DNA of 34,105 nt. Source: a virus. Below, piece by piece: positions 3,959 to 34,105 of the stretch; position 1 is the first letter of the stretch; every line of letters begins with the position of its first letter. The translations under genes were made by a program, and so were the position numbers. The stretch is taken from IMG/VR virus record IMGVR_UViG_3300027833_001226, positions 1-34,105 of that record. One strand, 5' to 3'. Under the pieces are notes generated by a model, which saw only the letters and a program-made list of their open reading frames with translations, was not told where the DNA came from and made no database searches.

Positions 3959-6265
3959 ATGATACAAGTTATCCAAGTGACAAAACGTGATGGGTCAAAG
4001 GAGCCATTAGACGTAGAAAAATTACACAAGGTAGTTTTTCACGCCTGCGACAACATTACCGGCGTGTCGCCATCAGAAGTTGAAATCAAAAGTCAGATTC
4101 AGTTTTTCTCTGGAATTACATCAAAAGAAATTCAAGAGACACTCATTAAAGCAGCAGCTGATCTTATCAGTGAAGAAACTCCAAATTACCAAAATGTTGG
4201 TGGCAGGCTGATTAACTATGGTCTTCGTAAAGAAGTCTATAATGGTTATGAACCAATTGCTGTAAAGGCTTTAGTTGAAAAGAATATTGACCGTGGTTTC
4301 TACGATCCTGAATTGTTATCATATTACACCGATGAAGAGTGGGATAAAATCGATGGATTTGTTAAACACGAACGTGATGAAAACTTAACCTATGTTGCTA
4401 TGGAACAACTACGTGGTAAGTATCTTTGTCAAAATAGAGTAACAGGCGAGATATTTGAAACACCTCAAATGTGTTATATTCTTATTGCTGCAACATTGTT
4501 TAATGAGTATCCATCAGAAACAAGAATGCAGTATGTAAAGGATTATTACGATGCTATTTCTCTACACGATATTAGTTTGCCAACTCCTGTTATGGCCGGT
4601 GTTCGTACGCCGCAACGTCAATTCAGTAGTTGTGTTCTTATTGAAACTGGCGATTCTCTCGACAGCATTAACGCTACTGCATCTGCCGTTGTAAAGTATG
4701 TAAGCCAAAAAGCTGGCATCGGTATTGGTGGTGGTTCAATTCGAGCAATTGGTACTCCTATTCGTAAAGGTGATGCATATCACACAGGTGTTATTCCTTT
4801 TTATAAGCACTTCCAATCTGCTATTAAATCTTGTTCACAAGGTGGTGTACGCGGTGGTGCTGGTACAATCTATTATCCTATCTGGCACTTCGAAGCAGAA
4901 GATCTTCTTGTATTAAAAAATAATAAAGGTACCGAAGATAACCGTGTACGTCATATGGATTATGGTGTACAGTTTAATAAGTTGATGTACGAACGTTTGA
5001 TTACTGGTGGCAATATCACATTGTTTTCTCCAAGTGATGTTCCTGGTTTATATGAATCATTCTATGCAGACCAAGCAAAATTCCGTGAGTTGTATGAAAC
5101 AGCAGAACGTAATACACGTCTTCGTAAAAAGACTATTCCTGCATCTCAATTATTCTCTGCATTTATGGAAGAGCGTAAAAACACAGGTCGTATCTATTTG
5201 CAAAATGTTGATAATGCAAACGATCATGGATCATTCTTACCAGAATTAGCTCCTATCCGTCAATCAAATCTTTGTGCTGAGATTGATTTGCCAACTAAAC
5301 CTCTCAATGATATTAATGATCCTGAAGGTGAGATTAGTCTTTGTACTTTAAGCGCAATCAACTGGGGTAATGTTCGCTGCACTTCAGACTTTAAGAAAGC
5401 TTGTGATCTTGCAGTTCGTGGTTTAGATGCGTTGCTAAGTTACCAAAACTATCCTATTGTTGCTGCACAACTATCCACAGAGAAGCGCAGACCTATTGGA
5501 GTAGGCATTATTAACTTTGCTTATTGGATGGCAAAGCATGATTTATCTTATCAGGATATCACTCCAGAGGGCCTAGAGTTAATCGATGAGTACGCCGAAG
5601 CTTGGGCTTATTATCTTACTAAAGCTTCTGCTGATCTAGCAGTTGAAATGGGTACCATCTCAGGAATTAATGAAACTAAATACGGTCAAGGCATTACACC
5701 TAACCAGACATATAAGAAAGATCTTGATGAATTAGTTAAGCATAAAGAACGTCAAGACTGGAAAGGTTTACGAAAGCAACTTAAAGCAACAGGTATTCGT
5801 AACTCTACACTAATGGCTCTTATGCCATCTGAAACATCAGCTCAAATTGCAAACGCTACAAACGGTATTGAACCACCTCGTTCACTTATTTCTGTTAAGC
5901 AATCTAAGCACGGTGTTCTTAAGCAAGTAGTTCCTGAGTACAGACGTTTAAAGAATAAATATGATTTACTGTGGGATCAAAAGTCTCCTGAAGGTTACTT
6001 AAAGATTATGGCCGTATTGCAAAAGTATATCGATCAAGGTATCTCTGTTAATACAAGCTACAATCCAGTATTCTTCGAAGATGAAAAGATTCCTATGAGT
6101 GTTTTGCTACAACACTTGCTTATGTTCTATAAGTATGGTGGCAAGCAACTTTATTACTTCAATACTTTTGACGGTCAAGGCGAACTTGATACAGATAAAA
6201 TGACTGAAGCGCCTTTAGCACAAGGCGAAGTAGATGATGACGATTGTGAGTCTTGTAAAATTTAA
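3959..6265 (+). CDS. nrdA: Ribonucleoside-diphosphate reductase class Ia, alpha subunit
   Basis: Catalytic large subunit that reduces ribonucleoside diphosphates to deoxy forms, with NrdB supplying the tyrosyl radical. The 768-residue length is normal. Residues 1-95 form an ATP-cone (VTKRDGSKEPLDVEKLH), the allosteric activity site. The active-site set falls on the same numbers as in E. coli: Cys225 (SSCVLIE), Asn437-Cys439-Glu441 (NLCAEIDLP) and Cys462. The radical-path Tyr pair lies in KQLYYFNT, and a CxxC pair (CESC, Cys763 and Cys766) at the C-terminus accepts electrons from a glutaredoxin; a phage glutaredoxin is encoded at 20581. AAGGAATAAGA precedes the ATG. The acidic run DDDD just before the CxxC is a notable detail. 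Confidence 0.97.
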   Translation: MIQVIQVTKRDGSKEPLDVEKLHKVVFHACDNITGVSPSEVEIKSQIQFFSGITSKEIQETLIKAAADLISEETPNYQNVGGRLINYGLRKEVYNGYEPIAVKALVEKNIDRGFYDPELLSYYTDEEWDKIDGFVKHERDENLTYVAMEQLRGKYLCQNRVTGEIFETPQMCYILIAATLFNEYPSETRMQYVKDYYDAISLHDISLPTPVMAGVRTPQRQFSSCVLIETGDSLDSINATASAVVKYVSQKAGIGIGGGSIRAIGTPIRKGDAYHTGVIPFYKHFQSAIKSCSQGGVRGGAGTIYYPIWHFEAEDLLVLKNNKGTEDNRVRHMDYGVQFNKLMYERLITGGNITLFSPSDVPGLYESFYADQAKFRELYETAERNTRLRKKTIPASQLFSAFMEERKNTGRIYLQNVDNANDHGSFLPELAPIRQSNLCAEIDLPTKPLNDINDPEGEISLCTLSAINWGNVRCTSDFKKACDLAVRGLDALLSYQNYPIVAAQLSTEKRRPIGVGIINFAYWMAKHDLSYQDITPEGLELIDEYAEAWAYYLTKASADLAVEMGTISGINETKYGQGITPNQTYKKDLDELVKHKERQDWKGLRKQLKATGIRNSTLMALMPSETSAQIANATNGIEPPRSLISVKQSKHGVLKQVVPEYRRLKNKYDLLWDQKSPEGYLKIMAVLQKYIDQGISVNTSYNPVFFEDEKIPMSVLLQHLLMFYKYGGKQLYYFNTFDGQGELDTDKMTEAPLAQGEVDDDDCESCKI

Positions 6266-6284
6266 TTAGTTAACAAAATAAGTA

Positions 6285-6312
6285 TTGACATTACTCTAAT
6301 ATATGTTAATAT
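6285..6312 (+). promoter_or_regulatory. Putative promoter for nrdB
   Basis: TTGACA (6285-6290) with TAATAT (6307-6312) at 16 bases, or the looser TATATA at 6310 further downstream. The -35 is perfect but the -10 is ambiguous. It lies in the only sizeable gap (81 bases) between nrdA and nrdB, so nrdB and the ALA synthase behind it may have their own start. Confidence 0.55.
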
Positions 6313-6346
6313 ATAACAATAAGTAATATGTGCAAAGGAAATATAA

Positions 6347-7474
6347 ATGAGCGTTTTTGACTCAAACAACCGCGTCGACCATACTTCAGTTTCGTCTTTT
6401 CTAGACCCAACAGGTGGGCCAACAATTCAACGGTACGATACACTAAAATATAAGCAATTCGATCAGTTGACAGATAAGCAGTTGGGGTTCTTTTGGCGCC
6501 CTGAAGAAGTAGATATCTATCAAGATGCAAAAGACTTTAAGTCATTAACTGAACATGAACAACATATCTTTACTTCTAATTTGAAACGACAGATTTTGTT
6601 AGACAGTGTTCAAGGTCGTGCACCTGCAGAAGCGTTTGGTTCTATTGTTTCTTTGCCTGAGCTTGAGAACTGGATTATTACTTGGACATTTTCAGAAACA
6701 ATTCATAGTCGTTCTTACACTCATATTATTCGCAACATCTATTCAAATCCGTCTAAGATCTTTGATGAAATGCTTAACGTTAAAGAGATTGTAGATTGTG
6801 CAGATTCTATCTCAGGTTATTACGATGATTTAATTGAGATGGCAGGTTATTATAATCTTTTGGGTGTTGGTACACATACTGTTAATGGTAAGAAAGTTGT
6901 AGTAGATCTATATCAATTAAAGAAAATGTTATATCTCACACTGATGAGCGTTAACATTCTTGAAGGTGTTCGCTTCTATGTTTCGTTTGCATGCTCTTGG
7001 GCATTCGCTGAATTGAAGAAGATGGAAGGTAATGCTAAAATTATTAAGCTTATTGCTCGTGATGAAAACCTTCACCTTGCCTCTACTCAAATGATGCTAA
7101 AATTGCTTAAGCAAGAAGATAAAGACTTTGAGAAAATTGCACAAGAAACAGAAGCTGAATGTATTCAAATGTTTGTAGATGCAGTAGATCAAGAAAAAGA
7201 ATGGGCTAACTATCTGTTTAAAGATGGCTCAATGATTGGTCTTAATGCTGAATTGCTACATCAGTATATTGAGTTTATTGCTACTCGTCGTATGACTAAT
7301 GTAAAACTTCAATCACCATATAGCATTAAGAACAACCCGTTACCTTGGACACAAAAGTGGATCTCTGGAGCTGATGTGCAAGTTGCACCACAAGAAACAG
7401 AAATTACATCTTATGTACAAGGTGGAACAAAACAGGATGTTGATAAAAATACATTCACTGGATTCAGTCTGTGA
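6347..7474 (+). CDS. nrdB: Ribonucleoside-diphosphate reductase class Ia, beta subunit
   Basis: Di-iron, tyrosyl-radical subunit of the phage RNR. All metal ligands and the radical Tyr are present, each exactly two positions after its E. coli counterpart: Asp86 (QILLDS), Glu117 and His120 and Tyr124 (SETIHSRSY), Glu206 (NILEGV), Glu240 and His243 (RDENLH). It is therefore predicted to be an active class Ia beta subunit needing iron and oxygen. Length 375 is normal. AAAGGAA precedes the ATG. Its stop overlaps the next gene in the sequence TGATG (7472-7476), which ties ALA synthase translation to NrdB. Confidence 0.96.
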
Positions 7475-8661
7475 TGTACGATGAATACTTTGATCAAAAA
7501 ATAGAAGAATTTAAAGATGATGGTAGATACAGAGTATTCAATGATATTCTTAGAGAGCGGGGAGACTTTCCTCGCTCAATTTGGTATGGAAAGTACGCAC
7601 CAAAAAATATAGTTAACTGGTGTTCAAATGATTATCTTGGTATGGGACAAAACACACACGTAGTAAGTGCTATGCATAGTGCTTTAGACCAAACAGGATC
7701 TGGTTCTGGTGGTACTCGCAACATCGGTGGTAATACTCATTATCATGTCACATTAGAAAAAGAATTGGCTAACTTACATCAAAAACAATCTGCCTTATTA
7801 TTCACGAGTGCATATGTTGCTAATGAATGGTCTCTTATAGGATTAAGTAAAATTGTTCCTAATATTTGTTTTGTTTCTGATAGTAAAAATCATGCCTCAT
7901 TAATTGTTGGTATGTCACATAGTCGTGCTGCTAAAAAGGTCTTTGAACATAATAACCTAGATGATCTAGAAGTACAACTCAAGGCAGCAATAAAAGAAAA
8001 ACATATTCCTTGTATTGTATTTGAATCTGTTTATTCTATGGATGGCGATATCAGTCCAATGGAAGCTATATGTGATCTTGCAGATAAATATAACGCATTG
8101 ACATATATTGACGAAGTTCATGCTGTTGGTCTATACGGAGAAACAGGTGGTGGCTACTGCCAAAAGCTAGGCTTATCACATAGGGTAGATATTTTAAATG
8201 GCACACTCGGAAAAGCATTCGGGGTACAAGGCGGGTATGTTGTTGGGAATACTAATATTATTGATGCTATTAGGTGTGTTGCTAGTGGGTTTATATTCAC
8301 TACATCAACCAGTCCAGTCATTTGTGCTGGAGCCTTGGCATCCATCAGATATCTCCGTGACAATCCTGCCCTAAGAGAAGAGCACCAGAAAAAAGCAAAA
8401 CAATTAAAAGAAATGTTAATAGACGCAGATATACCAATACATGAAAACTCGTGTACTCATATCGTGCCTGTAATGGTTAACGACGCATTTAAATGCAAGG
8501 AAGCCAGTGATCGCCTTCTAAATGAGTTTGGGATTTATATACAACCTATAAATAGCCCGACAGTCCCGCAAGGTACTGAAAGATTGCGAATCGCACCAAC
8601 GCCGTATCATGATGAAGTTATGATGATACAATTAATTGAAGCGTTGAAGAAAATATTATAA
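7474..8661 (+). CDS. hemA: 5-aminolevulinate synthase (Shemin pathway)
   Basis: PLP enzyme that condenses glycine with succinyl-CoA to 5-aminolevulinate, the first step of haem and other tetrapyrroles in Alphaproteobacteria. The 395-residue product matches ALAS and not its relatives BioF or Kbl at the specificity segment GTRNIGG (Thr81-Arg82-Asn83, equivalent to Thr83-Asn85 of Rhodobacter ALAS). Other landmarks: RYRVF near the N-terminus, [18 protein letters not shown] (His140), YIDEVHAVG (Asp213, His216), the PLP lysine in GTLGKAFG (Lys247), and [11 protein letters not shown]. No Cys-Pro haem-regulatory motif is seen. ATG 7474 is chosen over GTG 7471, giving a TGATG overlap with nrdB; no strong ribosome site is visible, so translation probably depends on coupling. 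Phage hemA is rare; all catalytic residues look intact. Confidence 0.9.
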
Positions 8662-8679
8662 TGTTAAAAGGAAATACAT

Positions 8680-9099
8680 ATGAGTAAAATTAAAAAAGCA
8701 TTTTGGTTTACATTAGGAATTATCCTAATTGGAGTGGCCTACTTGGGAGTTATTCTTCCGGGCCTACCTTGGAGTACACCAATTCTTGGCGCAACATTCT
8801 GCTTTGCTAAGTCGAGCCCAAGATTCCACGCATGGATTATGAACCACCCGCGTTTCGGTCCATTCGTTACTAACTGGGGTACATATCGTGTATATCCCAC
8901 AAAAGCAAAATATCTGATGGTATTCGTTATGAGTACATCATTAGTGGTATTTTTCTTAACAGTTGCAAACATTAAAGCTACAATCTATATGGCAATAATG
9001 TTTGGCTTGATTATAATTTGGGCAACACGATATCCTGGCTCAAAAGAAGAAGCGCAAAGACGAATAGACGCTGGCAAGAAAATTGGCTGGCTAAAATAA
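8680..9099 (+). CDS. DUF454/YbaN-like inner-membrane protein
   Basis: The 139-residue product has the signature of the DUF454 (YbaN) family: an N-terminal membrane helix followed by GVILPGLPWSTPILG, CFAKSSPRFHAWI and the HPRFGPFV..W segment, then two more hydrophobic helices (about 79-96 and 98-115) and a basic tail. The biochemical function of the family is unknown. It follows ALA synthase by 18 bases with AAAGGAA before the ATG, so it is probably in the same transcript. A role in haem or iron handling is suggested only by that adjacency. I do not know of DUF454 as a common phage gene. Confidence 0.8.
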   Translation: MSKIKKAFWFTLGIILIGVAYLGVILPGLPWSTPILGATFCFAKSSPRFHAWIMNHPRFGPFVTNWGTYRVYPTKAKYLMVFVMSTSLVVFFLTVANIKATIYMAIMFGLIIIWATRYPGSKEEAQRRIDAGKKIGWLK

Positions 9100-9155
9100 A
9101 TCTATAAAGATCTGGGAAGATCTAATAACGTGACTCTGGGAAATAAGGGTCCACA

Positions 9156-10118
9156 ATGAAAGGTTCAAAAATGAAACTATTAACTAGCACAATGATGTGC
9201 TTATCGCTATTTGCGACAAACGTTTATGCAGACGGACATGAACAAAAGGAAGAAAAAAAATCCGGTCTATATTATGATGGTAATGTTGAAATGTACATCG
9301 ATGGCGAATGGCCAGAAGGTGACATGAGTTCAAGAGCGGAGATTTTCGCAGGGTTTCAAACAGAACTTAATGATGGTCCATTTAACTGGGCAGGTGCAGG
9401 CGCACGGTATGATACTAACTATTCGTTAGATCGTACATTAGATAACACAATTCAAGAAAAACAACTTGGTTTGGGTATCGGTAATACAAGAGTATATATT
9501 GGTGAGACTGATGCACAACGTTTAGGCTTTGCAAAAACGTCTAAAATTGGAGCACCAGTAATTGTAATTGAACCAAATTCACGTATTGACCATAAAGAAA
9601 AAGTAGTAATTACTTTTGGCGATTGGGTAAATAACGATGAGTTTAAATTCAATCAATATAAACTCGATAGAAAAAAGCTACCAATTGGTGGTATTGTAGG
9701 TTATGAACCAGAAACAAAATCAATGTACTATGGTGCAACAGCACGTTTAGCGATCTTTGATGTATCATACTTGCAAATTAGTACAGATGGTAAAGAGACA
9801 CAACGTGGTTATAGTGTTGGCACATCATTATATCCAATCGGATTACCAGTAGGTTTAGGTTACGAGCAGTTTGATGATGGTGGTAACGTACGTAAAGATT
9901 ACGGTGTTATGTATTATGGAGTCAAAAATCTAATCCTTTCAGCACACAGAGTTGAAGACGATGATATCGGCTTTACATTTAACTACTTTGGTGCAGTTTA
10001 TAATCAAGGTCCAATGGAGTATGGTGCATACTTCCACCACGACAAGAAAATGGTAGGCCGTTATGGTAACGCCGAATATGATAATAGCCTTAAAGCTACA
10101 ATCAAATATAATTTCTGA
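9156..10118 (+). CDS. Porin-like outer-membrane beta-barrel protein
   Basis: The product has a signal peptide (MKLLTSTMMCLSLFATNVYA, cleavage expected before DGHEQ), then long alternating polar/hydrophobic stretches with many Tyr and Gly residues, and ends KATIKYNF. The terminal Phe after alternating residues is the BAM-complex signal of outer-membrane barrels. About 300 mature residues would suit a 14-16-strand porin. Two starts are possible: ATG 9156 (AGGG upstream) or ATG 9171 (AAAGG 7 bases upstream, giving the cleaner signal peptide). It may replace or block a host surface channel, altering permeability or superinfection, as lambdoid phage porins do; that is inference. Not recognised at family level. 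Last gene of the ALAS trio, followed by a TATAAATA box and a terminator. Confidence 0.75.
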   Translation: MKGSKMKLLTSTMMCLSLFATNVYADGHEQKEEKKSGLYYDGNVEMYIDGEWPEGDMSSRAEIFAGFQTELNDGPFNWAGAGARYDTNYSLDRTLDNTIQEKQLGLGIGNTRVYIGETDAQRLGFAKTSKIGAPVIVIEPNSRIDHKEKVVITFGDWVNNDEFKFNQYKLDRKKLPIGGIVGYEPETKSMYYGATARLAIFDVSYLQISTDGKETQRGYSVGTSLYPIGLPVGLGYEQFDDGGNVRKDYGVMYYGVKNLILSAHRVEDDDIGFTFNYFGAVYNQGPMEYGAYFHHDKKMVGRYGNAEYDNSLKATIKYNF

Positions 10119-10119
10119 T

Positions 10120-10127
10120 TATAAATA
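10120..10127 (+). promoter_or_regulatory. T4-type late promoter box
   Basis: TATAAATA (10120-10127) begins 2 bases after the stop of the porin-like gene. A start about 10 bases downstream would begin right at the hairpin at 10138, so any late transcript would carry this hairpin at its 5' end before reaching the dehydratase gene at 10200. Confidence 0.5.
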
Positions 10128-10137
10128 AACTTAATAC

Positions 10138-10173
10138 GGCGATCACCTCTGTTTAACAAGTGATCGTCTTTTT
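10138..10173 (+). terminator. Intrinsic terminator after the porin-like gene
   Basis: GGCGATCAC (10138-10146) pairs with GTGATCGTC (10160-10168), nine pairs with one G-T, loop of 13 bases, followed by five T residues (10169-10173). It separates the RNR/ALAS block from the glycan block. Confidence 0.82.
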
Positions 10174-10199
10174 ACAATGTTATTGATGACGGAGATATT

Positions 10200-11225
10200 A
10201 TGAGCAAAAGAATCCTTATTACAGGTGGCGGTGGTTTTATCGCACACCATCTGATTAATCAAGTACTAAAACAAACAGATTGGGATATTGTTACTGTAGA
10301 TCGTTTAGACTATAGTGGTAATCTTAATCGTTTACACGATCTTTTACAAGAACGTACCCCAGAAGAACGCAAACGTCTTCGAACAATCTTCCATGATTTA
10401 AAAGCAGAATTTAACCCAATGCTCGTTGCAGACATTGGGCCGTGTGATATTATTGCTCACTTAGCAGCAGGCTCTCACGTAGATCGGTCTATTGACTTCC
10501 CTATGGAATTTGTTATGGACAACGTTGTTGGTACATGCAACATTTTAGAGTTTGCACGTAAACAAGAAAACCTCGAGCGTTTCCTATATTTCTCAACAGA
10601 TGAAGTATTCGGTCCTGCTCCTGACGATATTAAGTATGACGAATATGATCGTTATAATTCTACCAATCCTTATTCTGCTTCTAAGGCAGGAGCTGAAGAG
10701 CTTTGTGTAGCATACCAAAACACATATGATATGCCGATCTATATTACGCATACAATGAATGTGTTTGGTGAACGTCAACATCCTGAGAAATTCATTCCTA
10801 TGACTATTCGTAATGTACGAGATGGTGGTCTAGTAACAATTCACTCTGATGCAACAAAAACAGTTGCTGGTTCACGACATTATATTCATGCTGAAGATGT
10901 GGCAGACGCTACACTATTCTTGCTTAAGCACGAAGGTACACTAAACATTACAAATAACAATGGTGTTAAGTGTCCTAAGTTTAATATCTGTGGTGCTACT
11001 GAATTAGATAACTTGCAACTAGCACAAATGATTGCTGAAGCGCAAGGTAAAGAATTAAATTATCAATTTATGGATTTCCATAGCTCTCGGCCAGGACACG
11101 ATCTTCGATATGCCCTAAGTGGTGATAGAATGAAAGCAATGGGATGGGAACCTAAGCCAGTACATGAACGTATTGCTGAGGTAGTTAAATGGACACTAGA
11201 AAATAGACGGTGGTTAGACATATGA
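10200..11225 (+). CDS. NAD-dependent sugar epimerase/dehydratase, RmlB-like
   Basis: Extended short-chain dehydrogenase acting on a nucleotide sugar. The 341-residue product has the NAD motif TGGGGFIAHH (residues 8-17), LAAGSHVDRSI as in dTDP-glucose 4,6-dehydratases, STDEVFG (Thr133-Asp134-Glu135) and the YxxxK pair Tyr158/Lys162 (PYSASKAG). The Asp-Glu after Thr is typical of 4,6-dehydratases rather than simple epimerases, so RmlB-like chemistry (4-keto-6-deoxy sugar) is favoured, but the substrate is not certain. GGAG precedes the ATG. The stop overlaps the next gene as ATGA. It starts a three-gene glycan block. Confidence 0.82.
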   Translation: MSKRILITGGGGFIAHHLINQVLKQTDWDIVTVDRLDYSGNLNRLHDLLQERTPEERKRLRTIFHDLKAEFNPMLVADIGPCDIIAHLAAGSHVDRSIDFPMEFVMDNVVGTCNILEFARKQENLERFLYFSTDEVFGPAPDDIKYDEYDRYNSTNPYSASKAGAEELCVAYQNTYDMPIYITHTMNVFGERQHPEKFIPMTIRNVRDGGLVTIHSDATKTVAGSRHYIHAEDVADATLFLLKHEGTLNITNNNGVKCPKFNICGATELDNLQLAQMIAEAQGKELNYQFMDFHSSRPGHDLRYALSGDRMKAMGWEPKPVHERIAEVVKWTLENRRWLDI

Positions 11226-31459: not shown

Positions 31460-34105
31460 TGTCAATAACAAAGCGTACCGACAAAGGCTCGGCATTAACT
31501 TACGATGAAATGGATGATAACTTTGATGCTATCGCACCACGGACTAGTGCAACAGGTTCAATTCAAATTCCTGCAGGAGATACTAACGCTCGAGACGCTA
31601 CTCCATCAGCAGGCTTTTTAAGATACAACACAAGTCTTAATTCTTTTGAAGGCTATCAAAACGGAGCTTGGGGTAATTTAGGTGCAGGTGGCGGAGGTGG
31701 TGGCGGCGACGTTAACCAAAACGCTTTTAGTATTTTCTCAGTTTCAGGTCAAACAAGTGTTTCAGCAGATTCAGCAACAGATACCGTAGAGTTCATTGCT
31801 GGTTCAAATATCACTCTTACAACAAATTCAGGAAGCGATAGTATTACTATTGCAGCATCTGGTTTAACACAAGATTTTGCATATTCAAGTTTAACAGATG
31901 TTCCGTCAAGTTTTCCTCCAAGCACACATAACCAAGCATGGTCTACAATCACAGGAACACCAACCACATTAGCAGGTTACGGTATTACTGATGGCGGTGG
32001 TGGCGGCGGTGTACAAGGATTTACTGGTATACAAGGTTTCACTGGTGGAGATGGAGATCCTGGTGCTCAAGGTACAAATGGTATCGGACTAAGCGGTAAC
32101 CAAGGTATTCAAGGTCCAGCAGGTGATGGTTCCGGCGGCGGTGGAGCTCAAGGATTCCAAGGTACTCAAGGATTCCAAGGAACAATTGGACAAACTGGTT
32201 TTGGATCAGATGGTGCTCAAGGTTTTCAGGGTTTACAAGGCGACGAAGGTCCAGAAGGAAATTCAGTTCAGGGAATTCAAGGACCTTCTGCTCCAGCTGG
32301 AGCGGTAGTTCAGGGTACTCAAGGTGTTCAAGGTTCGCTAGGATTTGACGGTCAGCCAGGATTCCAAGGCATGCAGGGTTTAGATGCTGCAGGCGCCCAA
32401 GGTGTTCAAGGTCCTAATGGACCAGCAGGATTTGGTTTACAAGGACATCAGGGTATCCAAGGTGATCTTGGTCCTGAAGGTCCTGAAGGTGAAGGTGCTC
32501 AAGGTATTCAAGGTACTGATGGTTTCCAAGGACTTATCGGCGGTGATGGTGGCGATGGGCCAGACGGTCTTCAAGGTCTGCAAGGACCAGCCGGTTCTGT
32601 TCAAGGTTTACAAGGTACGATTGGTGTAGGCGACACGGGTGCTCAAGGTATTCAAGGCAGCGTTCTTCAAGGTACAATTGGTACTGACGGTGCTCAAGGT
32701 ATTCAAGGTTTACTTGGTACCGGTGTTCAAGGTCTTCAAGGAGAAGCTGTTCCAGGACCTAACGGTTTACAAGGTGCTACCGGTATTCAAGGTCTTGGTG
32801 GTGATGAAGGTATTCAAGGTACAGGCGGCGTAAGTATCCAAGGTATCCAAGGGACTCAAGGCATAATTGGAGAAACTGGTACTCAAGGCACACAAGGTAT
32901 TCAAGGTTTACAAAGTGTTCAAGGACTGCAAGGACTCCAAGGAGAAATATTACAAGGTGTTCAAGGTTCAGAAGGTACTATTGGACTGCAAGGTGTTCAA
33001 GGTAACCAATCTACACAAGGTATTCAAGGCAACGCCGGAATAGGTATTCAAGGACCGTCCGACGGTGTTCAAGGTTTGCAAGGTACGACTGGTGACGCTG
33101 GTGTTCAAGGACCGTCTGATGGACAAACGGGTGCACAAGGCTTATTAGGACCACAAGGTATTCAAGGTCTTACTGCTCAAGGTGTTAACGGTGTACAAGG
33201 TTTCGTCGGAATTCAAGGACCATCAGATGGTGCAGACGGAATACAAGGTACTACAGGTATTCAAGGCTCGCAAGGAACTCAAGGTTTAACTGGGGCAGGT
33301 GTTCAAGGTGCGACTGGTGACACTGGTGTTCAAGGACCTGCTGACGGACCACAAGGTACACAGGGTGTTATTGGTACTGCAGTTCAGGGTATTCAGGGTT
33401 CAACCGATGGACCTATTGGACCACAAGGTACACAAGGTGTTCTTGGTTTACAAGGTTTAACTGGATCAACCGGTCTTCAAGGTGTCCAAGGTTTAACTGG
33501 ATCAACTGGCCTTCAAGGTATTCAGGGTGTTCAAGGGATGCAAGGTCTCGATGGACCAGAAGGTAAACGTTCATTTGTTGTAGAAGCTAATGGTTCAACT
33601 GATTACGTAATTGATGGTGTAAATGATCCAACTATTAACCTTATTCGTGGATTTACTTATGCATTTAATGTAGCAGCAAATGGTCACCCATTTGAAATCA
33701 GAGCATCTAACGGTGGATCTGCTTATAATACAGGTGTAATTAATAACGCTGCACAACTTGGTACAGTCTTATTTACAGTGCCATATAACGCTCCTGCAAC
33801 TCTCTATTATCAATGTACTGTGCATTCGAATATGGGTGGAGTTATTAATACTTCTGATCTTGGACCAATTGGTTTAACAGGTCTTCAAGGTTTGCAAGGT
33901 GTCCAAGGTTTACAATCCGTGCAAGGTTTGCAAGGTTTGCAAGGTACAACGAGTCCGAATCCACTGTTTGCTGCTAACGAAGATACTCCTACTGCTCAAC
34001 CTGTAGCAACGGGTTCAAACGCAATTGCGCTAGGCGACTCATCAGATGCTTCGGGTGCTGACTCACTTTCGTTTGGTAGAGATTCAACAGCAAGCGGAGC
34101 TGACT
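31459..34105 (+). CDS. Collagen-like tail fibre with embedded cupredoxin-like domain (partial)
   Basis: The first 882 residues of a fibre that continues past the window. The N-terminus [22 protein letters not shown] is the typical attachment start of marine T4-like fibres. About 110-170 include a Gly-rich hinge and a [12 protein letters not shown] segment. Residues about 185-702 are collagen-like Gly-X-Gln/X-X triplets (GIQGVQGLQG style) broken by short interruptions. Residues about 703-800 form a compact beta domain with H743, C786, H789 and M792. A short second collagen stretch follows (about 805-833), then YadA-head-like repeats ([18 protein letters not shown]). AAACGACG precedes the ATG, which overlaps the upstream stop (TAATG). 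Host receptor binding is expected in the unseen C-terminus. Confidence 0.88.
32020..33564 (+). repeat. Collagen-like coding repeat
   Basis: About 1.5 kb of tandemly degenerate 9-18-base units, mostly variants of GGTATTCAAGGT, coding Gly-X-X triplets unusually rich in Gln. Trimeric triple-helix formation is expected. Alternative-frame open stretches here are by-products of the repeat. Confidence 0.9.
33451..33519 (+). repeat. Tandem 36-base duplication in the fibre gene
   Basis: The 33-base unit at 33451-33483 recurs at 33487-33519 with only two differences (C/T and T/C, both silent), coding [11 protein letters not shown] twice. This looks like a recent slippage or recombination event. Confidence 0.85.
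33565..33858 (+). other. Cupredoxin-like domain inside the fibre
   Basis: Residues about 703-800 of the fibre interrupt the collagen repeat. The sequence ends with [15 protein letters not shown]: Cys786, His789 and Met792 in C-x2-H-x2-M spacing, the same as in amicyanin, with an upstream His743 in NGHPFEIR. These are the four ligands of a type 1 copper site. Strands [34 protein letters not shown] fit a Greek-key barrel. Copper binding is inferred from ligand spacing only. Confidence 0.65.

Follow-up and report, generated by a model that had tools for sequence, protein, structure and literature searches.

A phage-encoded family of porin-like proteins in aquatic T4-like phages, predicted to form 16-strand barrels

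Porins encoded by phages are already known as a kind of protein. Lc and NmpC of lambdoid phages are OmpC-type porins encoded by temperate coliphages, and viral proteins annotated as porins are also found in BFVD. A viral porin, OmpL, lies beside glnK-amtB in phages of oxygen-poor ocean water and was traced to Bacteroidetes, as outlined in PMC8115048. The tetrapyrrole gene alaS is known in viruses as well, as outlined in PMC11480375, and that viral AlaS work backs the label that we give to a neighbor of the gene described here.

The window analyzed here is a virus record of 34,105 bases (IMG/VR IMGVR_UViG_3300027833_001226) that carries T4-like replication and nucleotide-synthesis genes. It also contains a low-complexity open reading frame (ORF) at 32384–32629, which may be a collagen-like fiber repeat read in the wrong frame. 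An earlier note on this DNA had proposed that one gene encodes a porin-like outer-membrane protein. In our analysis, this gene is no lone capture but a member of an unnamed porin family; the family is mobile, heme-linked, and, within what was searched, phage-restricted, and it appears undescribed. A non-exhaustive search of the open PMC literature found no description of the family, its restriction to phages, its cassette behavior, or its adjacency to tetrapyrrole genes.

The gene and its predicted product

The ORF runs from ATG to TGA on the plus strand (9156..10118), encodes 320 residues from the first ATG, and ends in KATIKYNF; its assignment as a porin-like outer-membrane protein gene is based on predicted fold and relatives. 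As the earlier note had pointed out, two start codons with separate ribosome sites are present, with purine-rich AAGGG (9145–9149) 5' of the ATG at 9156 and the Shine-Dalgarno-like AAAGG (9159–9163) 5' of the ATG at 9171. The second start, Met6, is nearly invariant in the alignment of 42 relatives, and the proteins of L004, L017, L024, and L025 begin at its equivalent, which makes 9171 the probable start and gives a plus-strand gene of 9171..10118 and a protein of 315 residues. Residues 6–25 (9171..9230, plus strand) are a signal peptide by simple rules, with a basic start, a hydrophobic core, and a V-x-A site (MKLLTSTMMCLSLFATNVYA|DGHE; predicted cleavage A25|D26). The same rules are passed by all 60 unique family proteins, and the C-terminal residue is aromatic in all 54 complete unique ones. 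The observation made in the earlier note holds. Mature proteins are acidic (net charge −10 to −31, pI 4.2–5.2; nine members), and Omp32-like anion selectivity was dropped for that reason.

Queries with the whole protein retrieved five IMG/VR loci, on other phage contigs, with 64%–91% identity to the window porin. NG86 comparisons gave dN 0.051 and dS 0.444 against L001 (dN/dS 0.11), dN 0.145 and dS 0.820 against L003 (0.18), and dN 0.241 and dS 1.003 against L004 (0.24). Because such relatives occur in other phage contigs and dN is well below dS in all three comparisons, the ORF is not a chance one. The gene is under purifying selection.

From an alignment of 42 rows (the window protein and 41 proteins from phage loci), AlphaFold2 predicted a 16-strand antiparallel barrel with a pLDDT of 73.6 and a pTM of 0.70. 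This model was used in place of one from 4 rows, which was discarded (pLDDT 31.4). By DSSP, predicted strands 1–8 cover residues 37–49, 57–70, 78–86, 98–108, 111–119, 146–155, 177–184, and 189–198, and strands 9–16 cover residues 201–210, 216–224, 232–240, 245–256, 259–267, 273–284, 287–301, and 311–319, with an extra four-residue piece (304–307) left out of the count. The top Foldseek match in the PDB was the Rhodopseudomonas blastica porin (1prn, E 7.7e-10), followed by OmpU, OmpT, and OmpF/OmpC types. VIA-align gave Z 21.4 and 2.8 A over 253 residues against Omp32 (1e54) and Z about 21 against OmpC/OmpF. The earlier note had asked for a fold search and had set its reading against a soluble fold; a barrel is what was predicted, no soluble fold appeared, and the modeled strands, Foldseek match, and Z score support a porin-like outer-membrane protein encoded by the phage. 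One predicted feature, the connection at residues 156–176, is longer than the periplasmic turns of porins usually are and counts against a general-porin reading.

The window protein had no match at E ≤ 1 in Pfam, Porin_1 and Porin_4 included, or in PHROGs, and neither Pfam porin family matched any of the 42 members. Among these members, the best E value was 0.019 in PHROGs and 0.16 in NCBIfam, with nothing below 0.01 in either, and the window protein is recognized by no model of NCBIfam. A single member, not the window protein, matched OMP_b-brl (PF13505, E 7.9e-05), and a single member reached the cyanophage barrel Phage_OMP (PF24653) at E 0.79, which we do not count as a profile match. PDB sequence searches with the porin protein returned no true relative, and hhalign was negative against five Porin_1 and seven Rhodobacterales Porin_4 proteins (probabilities of 3.5% and 9.3%), which are the cleanly read ORFs of 7 and 13 loci, respectively. 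The phage family and four of the seven Rhodobacterales Porin_4 proteins have in common a G[DE]TD motif where strand 5 meets L3; shuffled proteins are expected to contain about 0.06 such motifs each, counted over the whole chain. At the level of sequence, this motif is at most a hint of kinship with Rhodobacterales porins.

A long loop (residues 120–145, a 26-residue gap) separates predicted strands 5 and 6, which we take to be the position of the constriction loop L3 in general porins. Strand 5, this constriction-loop-like L3, and strand 6 (residues 111–155, TRVYIGETDAQRLGFAKTSKIGAPVIVIEPNSRIDHKEKVVITFG; 9486..9620, plus strand) are the most conserved part of the protein. Information per site is highest in L3 (3.86 of 4.32 bits, a value inflated by the retrieval of L011–L090 through 8-residue matches inside residues 84–155), and outer loops L5, L8, L4, and L1 are the lowest among loops (2.13–2.42 bits). 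Outer loop L7 (268–272) is not variable, at 3.79 bits, which counts against the general-porin reading set out below. The pore-loop conservation is real, because it is seen again in porins found through bilin reductase and not through the segment itself: in six representatives, the core at 111–155 is 58%–73% identical to the window protein and the rest 35%–41%. Residues 132–141 of L3 have a pLDDT below 50 despite their conservation, so that a position of the loop inside the pore is putative.

Occurrence in phages and genomic sites

The earlier note had described phage outer-membrane proteins as rare, a description that this family does not support. It is common in aquatic phage contigs, with 118 IMG/VR stretches matching the central segment (80 of them fetched), although locus counts include near-identical phages from several samples. 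A tblastn search with three family members against 50,697 named phage records gave no match. The genome collection contained two matching loci, both in "Rhodobacteraceae bacterium Water_Bin34" (G001, FZLS01). This bin has three porin copies or contigs and nine Gp23 capsid matches but no Porin_4 match, whereas each of the remaining 20 of 21 genomes searched has one. Its porin loci are therefore phage contigs, in a bin apparently heavily loaded with such contigs. In view of the nine Gp23 matches and the missing Porin_4, we rejected an assignment of the host to Rhodobacteraceae by way of this bin. When 196 genomes of the bin's order and 398 genomes from its phylum were searched with a profile, the family appeared only in that bin, apart from one fragment at E 0.04. 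Recent capture from a host, which the earlier note had wished to judge from homologs in host genomes, thus finds no backing in those genomes outside the phage-laden bin. Within what was searched, the porin family is restricted to phages.

The neighbors of the window porin are metabolic (nrdA, nrdB, alaS, and DUF454). The alaS, DUF454, and epimerase genes, the leader before the porin, and the box-and-hairpin region after it, all described below, are on the plus strand. The upstream neighbor at 7471..8661 (PF00155 6.5e-60; synteny) is a 5-aminolevulinate synthase-like gene, which we take to be alaS/hemA from family traits read in its sequence rather than from a specific model. It is followed by a gene for a DUF454 (YbaN-type) inner-membrane protein (8680..9099; PF04304 2.7e-26). 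Downstream, a nucleotide-sugar epimerase/dehydratase gene (10200..11225; PF01370 2.8e-48, phrog_540 2.1e-102) borders the variable site.

We grouped 82 loci into contexts A–F, using plus-strand matches minus seven repeats and including loci cut by contig ends. Context A (15 loci) has the order of the window, DUF454-porin-epimerase, and alaS lies upstream wherever the contig extends far enough. The porin directly follows the Gp23 capsid gene in context B (27 loci; PF07068 2e-98 in L048). In context C (15 loci), it lies between the hemO-bilin reductase pair (PF01126 8.4e-19 and PF05996 2.6e-19 in L081) and what is presumably a neck gene, a label taken from the record of Pelagibacter phage Mosig. 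Context D (17 loci) places it near nrdB and a glutaredoxin-like gene, and four loci each belong to context E and to other arrangements. In T4-like phages, the family occupies several sites that are unrelated to one another. Members from contexts A and E interleave in the porin tree (support 0.992, from one FastTree run in which several deep nodes are weak, at 0.453 and 0.858), and therefore the porin gene changes sites. The carriers are diverse, since the capsid of L048 is nearest to jumbo-phage capsids (67%–71% identity). In L027, the porin is directly followed by another exported, barrel-like protein with FNF at its end (4890–5687), and an ORF of the same cluster follows the porin in L029.

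Two sites occur both with and without the gene. In Mosig, the hemO, bilin reductase, and neck genes stand in a row without a porin. Among 80 bilin-reductase loci fetched of 475 matched, 37 have the porin; of the 43 that do not, 26 continue directly into the neck gene, 3 stop at the reductase, and the remaining 14 show different neighbors or too little sequence. Among 80 alaS loci fetched of 90 matched, DUF454 is present in 54 and the porin in 6. In eight porin-free alaS-DUF454 loci (L103, L104, L108, L109, L111, L112, L118, and L119), the epimerase follows DUF454 directly, and in L103, one of these empty sites, the sequence 5' of the epimerase is nearly the same as that 3' of the porin in L003. 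A short leader between the DUF454 and porin genes (9100..9155) is missing together with the porin at empty sites. Given this clean pattern of filled and empty sites, the porin behaves as a one-gene cassette.

The region between the porin stop and the epimerase (10119..10199) contains a T4-late-promoter-like box, TTATAAATA (10119–10127), followed by a hairpin. The box is invariant directly 3' of the stop in 10 of 10 aligned rows (the window at 10119–10175, L001, L003, L004, L017, L018, L020, L024, L025, and L028). The hairpin arms differ in sequence between rows, and single folds gave a hairpin at this site in all seven context-A sequences folded. An ATAAATA box and then the same hairpin also precede the epimerase at the empty site of L103. 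The arrangement resembles that of a late promoter and a 5' hairpin, although counts of TATAAATA and CTAAATA across the window are at chance, which leaves the conserved position behind the porin stop as the sole suggestive point. The hairpin near 10140 has a loop longer than a simple terminator scan allows and was not listed by it. RNAalifold gave the hairpin alignment no consensus structure, and we claim no covariation.

Possible roles of the phage porin

We lean slightly towards a phage-specific general porin, that is, an outer-membrane channel exported by the host that keeps or alters the uptake of small solutes and is encoded by a single-unit auxiliary gene. The infected host is predicted to export the protein, which would be inserted into the host outer membrane and would form a water-filled channel, probably a trimer. 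Such a channel could keep or change small-solute uptake while host gene expression is shut off, and the auxiliary gene would travel between phages as a single unit. In favor of this reading are the porin fold predicted for the entire mature chain, the signal peptides and C-terminal aromatic residues, the purifying selection, the conservation of L3, neighbors that are metabolic genes or, in other phages, hemO and bilin reductase, and the empty sites. The protein may thus act as a virocell porin that replaces or supplements host permeability, and its function could lie in nutrient uptake or in superinfection exclusion. In contexts B and C, where the gene follows the major capsid gene or precedes the neck gene, the porin may be made late, with uptake mattering less.

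Exclusion of superinfection by a receptor swap, in which the phage porin replaces or masks a host porin used by other phages, is possible but clearly less probable than a channel for uptake. It fits the predicted porin fold, the variability of outer loops L1, L4, L5, and L8, and the lambdoid Lc/NmpC precedent. However, it is the constriction loop, and not the surface, that is most strongly constrained, these T4-like phages are most likely lytic and would leave little time for a late surface change, and no link to exclusion genes was seen. Surface camouflage alone would not keep L3 fixed, and the constraint on this loop favors selection on passage through the pore over camouflage, both of them putative roles that a single porin might combine. 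A helper of lysis or release, made late as a barrel that would weaken the outer membrane next to Rz/Rz1 spanins, seems very unlikely. The porin adjoins capsid or neck genes in two contexts and the window has spanin-like ORFs at 50–824, but the window porin sits among nucleotide and tetrapyrrole genes instead of lysis genes, and such a role would not conserve a selective porin loop. We give still less credence to a barrel-like protein of the virion that plays no part in the outer membrane; the structural-gene neighbors in contexts B and C would suit it, but the rule-based cleavable signal peptide and C-terminal aromatic residue throughout the family, and the clean absence of the gene from sister phages, argue against it.

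A channel for heme, bilins, 5-aminolevulinate, or precursors such as glycine and succinate, serving the phage alaS or hemO/bilin-reductase genes, is suggested by two independent neighborhoods, namely the position after the DUF454 of alaS-DUF454 or before the epimerase and the position beside hemO-bilin reductase (15 of 82 loci each). Of 20 porin-bearing records, 6 have alaS, 7 have hemO, 12 have either, and 5 have DUF454, and nearly half of the fetched bilin-reductase loci have the porin. The suggestion is weakened by the gp23-adjacent group, which has neither alaS nor hemO even on contigs of 137.7 kb and 135.4 kb; the eight records without either gene are seven context-B records and L038. The scarcity of the porin at alaS loci and the porin-free hemO-bilin reductase of Mosig also count against this role, as does the size of heme, since general porins seldom pass molecules as large. 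The link between porin and tetrapyrrole genes lacks a matched control among related phages and could be explained by shared hosts. Overall, we consider a tetrapyrrole channel rather unlikely. Slightly more doubtful is a broader proposal, a phage-only porin lineage that moves as a single-gene cassette among distant T4-like phages and whose near-invariant constriction loop is tuned to one class of solute needed or released by heme and tetrapyrrole modules.

Further heme-pathway genes are seen in L003, a phage contig that carries uroporphyrinogen decarboxylase (PF01208 3.1e-59) and porphobilinogen deaminase (PF01379 5.2e-51) genes at 5567–7529. An A-type iron-sulfur carrier gene lies between alaS and DUF454 in L004 (5157–5507) and in L008 (7157–7507; PF01521 8.8e-10), which is the same phage type. 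In the window, alaS is followed by DUF454 (7471–9099), a pairing that recurs in most of the fetched viral alaS loci; the term "DUF454" is absent from the main text of PMC11480375, where nothing was seen on this pairing.

Phages are known for metabolic enzymes, and a widespread outer-membrane pore restricted to phages would give many aquatic phages a hold over what enters the infected cell as well. With a pore loop so strictly conserved, the question of substrate can be tested on one purified protein, and the link with alaS and hemO/bilin reductase offers a starting point for understanding why heme genes occur in phages at all.

Comparison with known systems

The window protein is similar to general 16-strand porins (Omp32, OmpC/OmpF, and 1prn) in its predicted fold over residues 33–320, with 16 strands and a long loop after strand 5, and in its signal peptide and C-terminal Phe. 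It differs from them in sequence (about 10% identity, no Porin_1 or Porin_4 match, and a negative profile-profile comparison) and in its short outer loops and long 156–176 connection. Like lambdoid Lc/NmpC, it is a phage-encoded porin-like protein, but the absence of a Porin_1 match in the family gives no sign of OmpC-type kinship. Two viral porins in BFVD are similar barrels, A0A6J5L4P1 ("OmpC", uncultured Caudovirales phage; Foldseek E 1.9e-6) and A0A8S5S2G8 ("phosphate-selective porin", Siphoviridae sp. ctBLh2; E 6.8e-6), but these chains are longer and only 10%–11% identical. Like viral OmpL, as outlined in PMC8115048, the family is encoded by an auxiliary gene of aquatic phages and is a beta-barrel porin by prediction; it is set apart by description, as OmpL goes with glnK-amtB and has a Bacteroidetes origin. 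The main text of PMC11480375, in which "porin" and "outer membrane" do not occur, outlines viral alaS and hemO/pcyX cassettes made up of the same metabolic genes that are neighbors of the porin family.
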